64,000 bases of DNA, from the NCBI GenBank assembly GCA_021324165.1, contig JAJPJR010000068.1, positions 1 through 64,000 on the forward strand. The letters run 5' to 3'. Below, one piece after another: positions 4,267 to 5,924 of this stretch. Made by a program: the position numbers and the translations under genes. A model generated the notes under the pieces. The model searched no databases and was not told the DNA's origin. It worked only from the letters and a program-made list of their open reading frames with translations. This DNA comes from Armatimonadota bacterium (GTDB lineage Bacteria > Armatimonadota > Fimbriimonadia > Fimbriimonadales > ATM1). Within the stretch, counting starts at the first letter, position 1. Each line of letters opens with the position of its first letter.

Positions 4267-5460
4267 CTAAGACGAATCCCGCAGGTTGAAACTCACGTCT
4301 CCGCTCACGGCGCTGATGTCAATCGTGCCTTCGCCCGCTCCCAAACGGCCCGTAATGCGTTCTTCCGATCGGCGCATTTCATCCAGGGGCGCCGAACAGC
4401 TCACCGATCCGTTGATCGAATTGAGCGCAACGTTGCAGTTTGAACCGCCGGCGAGATCTACCAGCACGTCGCCGTGAACCGTTCGAATGTTCATGCTTCC
4501 ATCAAACGGCGCAGACACTTCCAGATCAATGTCGCCGTCAACCGTCTCCAACGAGAGCGTGTTGCCTTCCACATCTTTCGCCGCGATATCTCCGCTCGCC
4601 GCGCGAAGTTTCATTGGGCCTTTCGACCGTTCGATACGGATGTCGCCGTGCTGCACTTCGACTTGAATCTGGCTTGCCTGCGCATCGCGAAGTTTGACGT
4701 CACCCGCACTCGTTTTGATCTCGATCATTCCGCGCGCGCCTTCGCAAAACAGATCGCCGTGCTTAGAGGCCGCTCGAACTCCGCCCCCGGTTGCGCGGAT
4801 TTCCACATCGCCGGAACTCAGTTCGAGTTCGACCGAGACTCCCGAAGGAACTTCGATTTCATAGTTCTCGCAGCTCAGCTCGCCGTTCGTTCGTATCGTA
4901 ACGAGTCCTTCCTGAACGTCGAGAACGGGCGTCCATGTCCGCGCGCGCTCTTTGGCTTCTTCTTTGGTCTTTCCGCGAACGCGCACATCGGCGGTGAGTT
5001 TCGGATCGGAAGAGCCGCCTGTGATTTTGATGTCGCCTTTGCCGACCGACATTCTGAGCGTATCGCCCTGCGAGATTTTGAGCGGAAGCGTGACGTTTGC
5101 GGCTTCGTCATTTGTCCAAAACAGCCCGATCAGATCGCGTTTGGAAAGGTGCTCGACTTTTTCGCGAACGCTCTCTGCTCCTTTCCGCGCGGCATCGCGG
5201 ATGCTTTCTGCGATTTCGTTCCACTTGATGTTGGAAAGGCTCTCTTTGGTCAGGTTGTCAATGCTGTCAACGAACCGTCGAAACGGATCTTGCGGCTGCG
5301 ATTTGGGTTCTGGTTCCTGCTGAGCCTTCGGCTGCTCGGCGGGTTGTTCGGTTCGGGAACTTTCGAAGTCCACGAATGCATCCATCAGGTCGAGCGCATC
5401 ATCGGGCGACAGCCTGCCTTCCTGCACCATCCTCAGAATTCTCAAAACCTGATCTTTCAA
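4267..5460 (-). CDS. DUF4097 beta-repeat protein with SHOCT-like N-terminal motif (YvlB/LiaX-like)
   Basis: 397 residues. The N-terminal helical motif (about 5-28, LRILRMVQEGRLSPDDALDLMD) is of the short SHOCT-like kind. A low-complexity Glu/Gln/Pro linker follows (about 38-60). The rest is a long array of short beta repeats with recurring SGDVxI, HGDLxxE and DGDIDLE units, as in DUF4097 putative adhesins. There is no signal peptide or membrane segment. The start is a TTG sharing TTGA with the stop of the upstream DUF2089 gene. The order resembles Firmicutes YvlB/LiaX envelope-stress proteins (family knowledge); the role here is inference. Confidence 0.8.
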   Translation of the reverse strand: MKDQVLRILRMVQEGRLSPDDALDLMDAFVDFESSRTEQPAEQPKAQQEPEPKSQPQDPFRRFVDSIDNLTKESLSNIKWNEIAESIRDAARKGAESVREKVEHLSKRDLIGLFWTNDEAANVTLPLKISQGDTLRMSVGKGDIKITGGSSDPKLTADVRVRGKTKEEAKERARTWTPVLDVQEGLVTIRTNGELSCENYEIEVPSGVSVELELSSGDVEIRATGGGVRAASKHGDLFCEGARGMIEIKTSAGDVKLRDAQASQIQVEVQHGDIRIERSKGPMKLRAASGDIAAKDVEGNTLSLETVDGDIDLEVSAPFDGSMNIRTVHGDVLVDLAGGSNCNVALNSINGSVSCSAPLDEMRRSEERITGRLGAGEGTIDISAVSGDVSFNLRDSS

Positions 5461-5870
5461 CTCGCGGCCTCCTTCATCGCTTCTTTGGCTTCGGCGGGAG
5501 TCAGCTCTCCCCGCTCCAGCCGTTCCAAAATCTTTGCTTGGTTTTCGGAAATCTGTTTTCGGCGCTCCTCGGAATCGCCGTCGGCGGTTGGCGCGAGGCC
5601 CAGCGCCTTAAGCAGCGCATCGAGCCGAGCCCTCACGGTTGGATAACTGAGACCCAACTCGCGTTCGACGCTGCTCAGTACGCCCCGGCAGCGAAGAAAC
5701 GTGATAAGAAAGTTCGTCTGCTCTTCATCCAGCCGCTGAAACGGCGAAAGGGCGAATCTGCCTCGTACCGATATGCCGGCTTCCTCGCTCTCGACCTCGG
5801 TAACCACCCAATCGTTGAACTGGCTTAGGTTGTCGGGCAATCGCTCGCGGAGCCGTGGATCGCCTGTCAT
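5457..5870 (-). CDS. DUF2089-type HTH protein with C-terminal SHOCT-like motif
   Basis: 137 residues. The central region (about 40-92; LDEEQTNFLITFLRCRG, ELGLSYPTVRARLDALL) is the DUF2089 helix-turn-helix. The C-terminal segment (about 111-133) reads NQAKILERLERGELTPAEAK and closely resembles the N-terminal motif of the next protein. The N-terminal zinc-ribbon Cys residues seen in some DUF2089 proteins are missing. It is the first gene of the unit and lies divergent to trmFO. A TATTCC hexamer sits seven bases upstream of the ATG. Probable DNA-binding regulator of the DUF4097 partner. Confidence 0.78.
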   Translation of the reverse strand: MTGDPRLRERLPDNLSQFNDWVVTEVESEEAGISVRGRFALSPFQRLDEEQTNFLITFLRCRGVLSSVERELGLSYPTVRARLDALLKALGLAPTADGDSEERRKQISENQAKILERLERGELTPAEAKEAMKEAAS

Positions 5871-5924
5871 GAGAGTGGAATACGATGCGCGGCAGGTTCT
5901 GGTTGCGGTATGACTGCACTCTCA
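5870..5924. repeat. short inverted repeat in the divergent DUF2089/trmFO promoter
   Basis: TGAGAGTG at 5870-5877 is matched by its reverse complement CACTCTCA at 5917-5924. The two arms flank the whole 55-base intergenic region and abut both start codons. It could be an operator for the DUF2089 regulator. An 8-base match in such a small interval could also be chance. Confidence 0.35.

Follow-up and report, generated by a model that had tools for sequence, protein, structure and literature searches.

Described systems

The closest described relatives of the locus treated here are the DUF2089–Toastrack neighbourhoods of Ravi et al. 2024 (PMC11237479; this and the other papers given by PMC number are cited from portions of their text), in which SHOCT-like ends are reported both on DUF2089 and on Toastrack proteins, and for which membrane-stress signalling was proposed. 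The core of the motif discussed below is thus already known, from that work and from the Pfam family PF22746, whose name (SHOCT-like_DUF2089-C) records the DUF2089 end. The canonical SHOCT domain (PF09851) resembles it in its roughly 30 residues, its strongly conserved Gly and its two helices, but is mostly C-terminal (PMC3581485).

In Bacillus subtilis, YvlB combines a SHOCT-like N-terminus with a DUF4097 domain and is under stress-sigma control as part of the sigma-W core regulon (PMC3498285). Its operon, yvlABCD, differs from the present locus in its PspC partner, YvlC, and in the absence of DUF2089, the latter because the cited portion of the description refers to the other three genes as putative membrane proteins (PMC9239133). 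Enterococcal LiaX also has a Toastrack-type C-terminus, and its N-terminal 47 residues and C-terminal half match the family model; it works, however, with LiaFSR and releases its N-terminal domain to the outside, according to the parts of the literature cited for it. The PadR–DUF1700–DUF4097 operons typified by Listeria lltR likewise place a repressor and a DUF4097 protein in one operon, but with a regulator of another family, with a membrane protein in between, and with no SHOCT-like hairpin mentioned in the cited portion of the text (PMC6624303).

The locus and its two proteins

The window is the whole stretch of 64,000 nucleotides that was analysed, from an Armatimonadota bacterium (contig JAJPJR010000068.1). 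The two genes of the pair and their parts are as follows.

5457–5870, minus strand: DUF2089 regulator gene, 137 aa, ATG start; PF09862, 75.7 bits
5736–5807, minus strand: degenerate zinc-ribbon region without cysteines; PF22747, 14.1 bits
5595–5732, minus strand: HTH of DUF2089 (PucR/LuxR/sigma-4-like); PF09862, residues 47–92
5463–5585, minus strand: helical hairpin at the DUF2089 C-terminus, helices 96–119 and 125–136 in the model; motif at 5484–5537
5457–5460, minus strand: 4-nt gene overlap TTGA, from the sequence
4267–5460, minus strand: DUF4097 (Toastrack) gene, 397 aa, TTG start; PF13349, 98.6 bits
5350–5457, minus strand: N-terminal helical hairpin of the partner, helices 2–13 and 19–37 (AlphaFold2); PF22746; motif at 5386–5445
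5290–5346, minus strand: low-confidence linker, residues 39–57; pLDDT below 50 for residues 39–53 and 55–57
4291–5052, minus strand: Toastrack beta-helix, residues 137–390; PF13349; block pLDDT mostly 94–98, three blocks 80–89

The regulator has an HTH core well above the Pfam cut-off of 33.4 bits and is the single DUF2089 match in its genome at E <= 0.01. The same HTH is matched by PF13556 at 19 bits, under the cut-off of 27 for that family, and the top Foldseek matches of the protein are Rv2242 and other HTH proteins, which are weak (E >= 0.05). The full DUF2089 architecture is not present, as the zinc-ribbon score lies below the cut-off of 27.6 bits and no CxxC occurs, the Cys columns being lost in an alignment with relatives. 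The AlphaFold2 model has a mean pLDDT of 86, with block values of 89–98 for residues 101–137 and 74 for residues 91–100.

The partner is a Toastrack protein by its PF13349 score and by a Foldseek match to the solved structure 4qrk (E 1.8e-8); in its AlphaFold2 model, the linker is followed by two more helices and then by the beta-helix. Its scores lie below the family cut-offs of LiaX and LiaG, with 33.4 bits against 350 for NCBIfam dapto_LiaX NF038025 and 68.1 bits against 285 for NF049997. The TTGA overlap of the two genes, read earlier from the sequence, was confirmed. Because the best 19-residue hydropathy values of the two proteins are 0.68 and 0.79, the regulator and its partner need no membrane between them, and the DUF4097 protein is predicted to be cytoplasmic or membrane-peripheral, lacking any hydrophobic segment of membrane-spanning length. 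The neighbourhoods of Ravi et al. are alike in joining a DUF2089 protein made of an HTH and a SHOCT-like domain to Toastracks with SHOCT-like N-termini; they differ in comprising four genes, in retaining the zinc ribbon and in having variants beside membrane domains, whereas the present locus has two genes, a lost ribbon and no membrane gene (PMC11237479, cited in part).

A hairpin shared across the order

The sharing of one SHOCT-like motif, noticed in the sequence-only reading, is borne out by Pfam: PF22746 matches residues 4–28 of the DUF4097 protein at 30.6 bits, above the cut-off of 27, and residues 112–130 of the DUF2089 protein at 19.3 bits (E 8e-4), under it. The pattern written at that time has to be amended, since the DUF2089 protein has E-R-G in place of E-G and the form common to both proteins is I-L-x(5)-G-x-L-[ST]-P-x-[DE]-A; the positions first given for the motifs (5472–5540 and 5377–5448) were roughly right but are narrower in fact (5484–5537 and 5386–5445). 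Canonical SHOCT PF09851 was not among the matches up to E 1, a search in which the HMMER filters drop most weak matches.

When the two proteins are compared without gaps, the hairpins make up the top-scoring segment (score 39), a similarity that is not significant, as 27 of 300 shuffled pairs (about 1 in 11) score as high, so that the single pair of the window proves nothing. Across the order, by contrast with the lone pair, the sharing of the hairpin is far beyond chance. DUF2089 was found in 55 of 61 genomes of the order, that of the window included; each of the 55 has a DUF4097 gene next to it on the same strand, downstream, and both hairpins are present, with the Gly and an Ala seven residues on in all 110 proteins (own pair included). 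The gap is at most 20 nt in 55/55 and a 4-nt overlap occurs in 31/55, start codons having been picked by script for both counts. At E <= 0.05, PF22746 was found on 45 of the 52 DUF2089 proteins in the alignment (that of the window among them), on 26/26 Toastrack partners and on all 36 small partners scanned (see below), the last two figures confirming the family and not its frequency because the partners had been preselected with the hairpin model of this analysis. In divergent Toastracks the hairpin residues L9, G15 and L25 make up three of the six invariant columns.

Co-occurrence across phyla

To widen the survey, genomes were searched for DUF2089 with the HTH profile PF09862, the hairpin forming no part of the query. 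It was found in 153 of 237 genomes of the window's phylum, in 78 of 199 of the Geosporobacter phylum (69 above cut-off), in 118/299 and 56/149 of two samples overlapping the latter, and in 132 of the 201 genomes of the phylum of a Chloroflexi genome (127 above cut-off). A scan of named genomes contributed the best 80 of 593 loci, with a query that contains the hairpin and is hence biased. The loci analysed are a part of all matches and comprise 378 loci with 356 distinct DUF2089 proteins, grouped as A (the window's order), B (other loci of its phylum, including 14 from that order), C (the Geosporobacter-type phylum), D (the Chloroflexota-type phylum) and the scan set. The zinc-ribbon CxxC is missing from 33 of 52 loci in group A, two being present in the other 19, and is found twice in 71/75 of group C.

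Part of the training of the hairpin model came from matches that follow DUF2089 in the first 266 loci, where the model gave 574 matches of at least 10 bits; in shuffled ORFs of the same loci no match reached 10 bits (one reached 8), and on the opposite strand none reached 8 bits. With the model then kept fixed, the full set of 378 loci yielded 831 matches of at least 10 bits, all on the DUF2089 strand. With S for a hairpin on DUF2089, D or U for one downstream or upstream, and ? for an unscored side, the automatic calls were 52 S+D+ in group A; 47 S+D+, 1 S-D+, 11 S-D- and 1 S-D? in B; 64 S+D+, 3 S+D-, 7 S-D- and 1 S+D? in C; 74 S+D+, 4 S+U+, 7 S+D-, 2 S-D+, 1 S-D- and 1 S+D? in D; and 76 S+D+, 2 S-D+ and 2 S+D? 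in the scan set. Five degenerate tails (L101, L364, L138, L154, L343) were manually reassigned to the class with a hairpin, one locus with a masked tail (L403) was dropped, and downstream absence was left unscored where less than 2 kb was available. In the final tally of 356 DUF2089 proteins, 321 loci have the hairpin on both sides, 17 on neither, 1 on DUF2089 only (L408) and none on the neighbour only, with 16 not scored on both sides and 1 dropped. The survey of DUF2089–DUF4097 neighbours for paired motifs, suggested by the sequence-only reading, therefore did not find one partner lacking the motif in most pairs.

Both-or-neither holds in 338 of the 339 loci scorable on both sides. It was rejected as statistical proof, since the presence of the hairpin on DUF2089 changes at most 4 times on the HTH tree, with one independent pair on supported branches; it describes a tight habit and not many independent events.

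DUF2089 proteins with a divergent, helical-looking C-terminal tail were seen in L103, L111, L113, L117, L118, L120, L267, L271–L273 and L400, and no hairpin neighbour was found in these loci. The L267 protein has a long C-terminal extension, and a long frame lies upstream of the HTH in L062, L108, L110 and L263–L266. Among the loci read there was no DUF2089–Toastrack fusion, and a look at viral contigs gave no relative.

Changing partner bodies

The body attached to the partner hairpin is far from fixed. Scored as Toastrack or other, the first downstream hairpin gene changes 26 times on the tree, and the presence of any Toastrack in the operon 19 times, both counts hinging on gene order and on the Toastrack model, which was built from the order of the window; 59 of the 155 operons with at least 2.5 kb examined have no Toastrack. 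Up to four hairpins follow DUF2089 within 2.8 kb. One recurrent partner is a small protein of about 140 aa (L187:5409-5822 and 35 relatives; 36 scanned of 43 listed), which consists of a SHOCT-like hairpin and about 100 residues ('KFLRVRV..KVNVNIP') forming a body without a Pfam name; another partner, in L191, is a pentapeptide protein. In Chthonomonadaceae, a family of Armatimonadota, and their relatives (L092–L101, L124, L126 and L139, the last two being Chthonomonadaceae records), a third operon gene has a hairpin at each end (for instance L139:7153-7698) and could possibly serve as a bridge. By eye, hairpins accompanied by membrane-like stretches were also noted in the operon, one stretch in L139:5414-5647 and two in L165:6398-6991.

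These data bear on neutral inheritance, in which the two genes would be an old pair whose hairpins each serve the folding or turnover of their own protein without any link between them. The few tree changes in hairpin presence are what it expects, and hairpins of the type helix-Gly-x-[IL]-[ST]-x-x-E would be easy to make; what speaks against it is that the partner body has changed 19 to 26 times with the hairpin retained, and that the matches are restricted to the DUF2089 strand (831 vs 0), with shuffled ORFs of the first 266 loci giving none of at least 10 bits. It is regarded as the least probable of the explanations considered here, and the hairpin pair is taken to be real and functional-looking.

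A broader reading of the swapping is offered tentatively, as rather doubtful: PF22746 would be an interchangeable docking plug by which one HTH regulator serves many partners (Toastrack, the small unnamed protein, the pentapeptide protein, a membrane-anchored hairpin, a double-headed adaptor), with autoregulation via an upstream palindrome in many lineages and with a sigma-W-like stress promoter joining or replacing that palindrome in the window's order, where the two signals were counted separately.

Do the hairpins bind each other?

It had been stated in the sequence-only reading that such motifs mediate oligomerisation; the sole published test found, made on canonical SHOCT of the different family PF09851, was negative (PMC3581485, cited in part). 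Direct binding of one hairpin to the other is a plausible prediction. It need not be exclusive, by analogy with YvlB, which in the cited part of a two-hybrid study binds PspA, LiaH and Yvl proteins (PMC9239133).

The residues flanking the turn Gly are predominantly K/R then D/E in DUF2089 (53% and 78% over 223 pairs) and D/E then K/R in the partner (69% and 73% over the same number). The turn charges of the two proteins are opposite in 145 of 239 pairs and like in 39 outside the Chloroflexota-type group, against 21 and 26 of 74 within it. Phylogenetic contrasts for the position pair C-1/N-1 gave r -0.42, the strongest of 121 position pairs, a value that varies with the treatment of branch lengths from -0.17 to -0.42 and is strongest in 4 of 5 settings; covariation at position -1 ranges by setting from r -0.11 to -0.35 in four groups. 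A charge-swap code was nonetheless treated as not replicated, because the signal is lost in the held-out Chloroflexota-type phylum with both register methods: the first test there used a poor register finder, and its repetition with an HMM register gave r -0.03 to -0.14, none significant. As a separate observation, the Chloroflexota-type loci L303, L305, L306 and L308 have swapped turn charges, with EGK or EGR in DUF2089 and RGE or KGE in the neighbour.

The same charges have been considered for a reading in which each hairpin associates with itself and the opposite turns (KGE vs EGK) keep the two proteins apart. The excess of opposite charges outside the Chloroflexota-type group is compatible with it, and a self-pair with -1 facing +1 would also be favoured; the Chloroflexota-type counts and the failure of canonical SHOCT to self-oligomerise speak against it, and it leaves the joint retention of the hairpin by both genes unexplained, so that we consider it quite unlikely.

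A stronger competitor, although still held to be doubtful, is that both hairpins bind the same third party, such as the inner membrane leaflet or a partner of the PspA/LiaI/PspC type, without touching each other. Ravi et al., in the text cited, propose membrane anchoring of SHOCT-like domains (PMC11237479), and the binding of YvlB to PspA and LiaH and the fusions of the hairpin to one (L139) or two (L165) membrane-like stretches point the same way. Against it, the operon in the window has no membrane gene of its own, and the second helices differ in mean charge over four groups, the Chloroflexota-type being left out (-2.3 to -3.9 in the partner, -0.8 to +1.1 in DUF2089), and because of this difference a common anionic-lipid surface is not suggested.

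Upstream signals

Two elements lie before the DUF2089 gene in the window.

5870–5924, no strand assigned: 8-nt inverted repeat TGAGAGTG/CACTCTCA, arms 5870–5877 and 5917–5924, 39 nt apart
5881–5906, minus strand: promoter-like GCAACC-N17-GTA box, with its end 10 nt from the ATG of the DUF2089 gene, on the upstream side

The repeat, earlier put forward as a site for DNA binding, exists as one 8-nt inverted pair that overlaps the DUF2089 start codon; it was not seen by eye in five upstream regions of the same family and is probably due to chance, and the suggested DNA binding at this site found no support. Elsewhere, a palindrome of the type ATTGA-N5-TCAAT is frequent upstream of DUF2089, in 53/74 regions of group C (25.9 in refitted shuffles), 42/89 of D (23.6), 58/79 of the scan set (26.1), 37/55 of B (11.9) and 40/51 of A (10.8); a first count had reused a model fitted to the same data, and with the refitted control the excess is smaller but still there. 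Training on the scan set gave a model that recognises the palindrome in 24 of 89 regions of group D, with 0.4 expected. The window and five relatives of its family have no good copy, matching 7 or 8 of the 10 positions. On inspection of individual loci, the palindrome was seen as ATTGA-N5-TCAAT or CTTAA-N5-TTAAG over three phyla (many of L005–L414), in tandem in some. Judged from these sequences, it is a possible operator, to which DUF2089 itself may bind.

The promoter-like box is the sole match in the window. In the order, GCAAC-N18-GTA occurs in 16 of 53 upstream regions (0.08 expected in shuffles), with one case alone, at spacing 23, for all other spacings from 8 to 27; beyond the order it was found in 2 of 57 regions of group B and in none of 243 others. 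In the genome, GCAACC-N17-GTA was counted 15 times and its reversed control 12 times, for which reason most genomic copies may be chance; the variant with spacing 15 has 10, and its reversed control 22. Nine of the 15 boxes lie 8–34 nt before an ORF, all nine ORFs having Pfam matches: DUF2089, DUF2807 (Toastrack-type), LemA, M48 peptidase, NfeD-like (below cut-off), two ABC ATPases, DUF1579 and DUF6263. An ORF of at least 70 aa starts 4–45 nt downstream in 9/15 cases, against 3/10 at spacing 15 (Fisher p 0.23), and with Pfam support demanded the figures become 9/15 and 1/10 (p 0.018), where of the control ORFs L451 and L454 were Pfam-scanned, one matching and probably lying inside a ligase gene, and L456 was left unscanned. 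Eight of these nine boxes are crossed by a further open frame of at least 120 aa, which leaves their intergenic position a supposition. Over 61 genomes, the longer form TGCAACC-N17-GTAT gives summed counts of 60 against 18 for the reversed control; it precedes an ORF in 16 of 30 loci read (L461–L490), one of them a DUF2089 gene, and ten such ORFs, when Pfam-scanned, gave Band_7, NfeD-like (below cut-off), SdpI, ABC and DUF6263 together with unlikely members (CinA, prolyl oligopeptidase, DUF5117 and a weakly matched CBM_11), one ORF having no match. The 21 sigma-r4 loci of this genome all lack GCAAC-N18-GTA, and a literature search on a Fimbriimonas sigma factor and promoter found nothing.

For comparison with B. 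subtilis, the yuaF family is taken to be NfeD-like. The B. subtilis sigma-W list includes yvlABCD, yuaF-floT, yfhL and yknWXYZ (PMC3498285, cited in part), the families of the last three recurring in the box gene set here, and two promoters in the cited portion of a Streptomyces sigma-E table begin with TGCAACC (PMC6767563). On account of the box gene set and these two comparisons, a sigma-W-like membrane-stress regulon in this order is a good lead. A membrane- or envelope-stress context of the pair is supported, if indirectly, by the Toastrack homology, the box genes and the place of YvlB in the sigma-W regulon; as for the proposed envelope module analogous to YvlB and LiaX, the likeness to LiaX is one of domain only.

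Preferred reading and meaning

The reading preferred here, with a probability of roughly 45%, is a two-gene membrane-stress unit. DUF2089 would be a small HTH regulator with a C-terminal SHOCT-like hairpin, and the Toastrack protein would present its own N-terminal copy by way of a linker that is probably flexible. The one hairpin most likely docks on the other, the Toastrack would hold or free DUF2089 as the condition of the membrane dictates, and the operon would be expressed within a sigma-W-like stress regulon. The hairpins, their joint conservation, the promoter-like box and the Toastrack fold are observed; docking, control of the regulator, the signal and the acting sigma factor are inferred. 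That the two genes keep the tag together over several phyla suggests that it may couple a membrane-stress protein to the regulator of its genes.

The quantified pairing, the swapping of partners and the two upstream signals are apparently new in print, not having been seen in the literature searched. SHOCT-like hairpins occur widely and little is understood of them, and DUF2089 still counts among the domains of unknown function; a hairpin kept by a regulator and its neighbour over at least three phyla, while the body of the neighbour changes, turns the role of SHOCT into a simple binding test. If the hairpins do dock, they would define for Armatimonadota, Chloroflexota and many Bacillota a path by which membrane damage reaches transcription without a two-component system.
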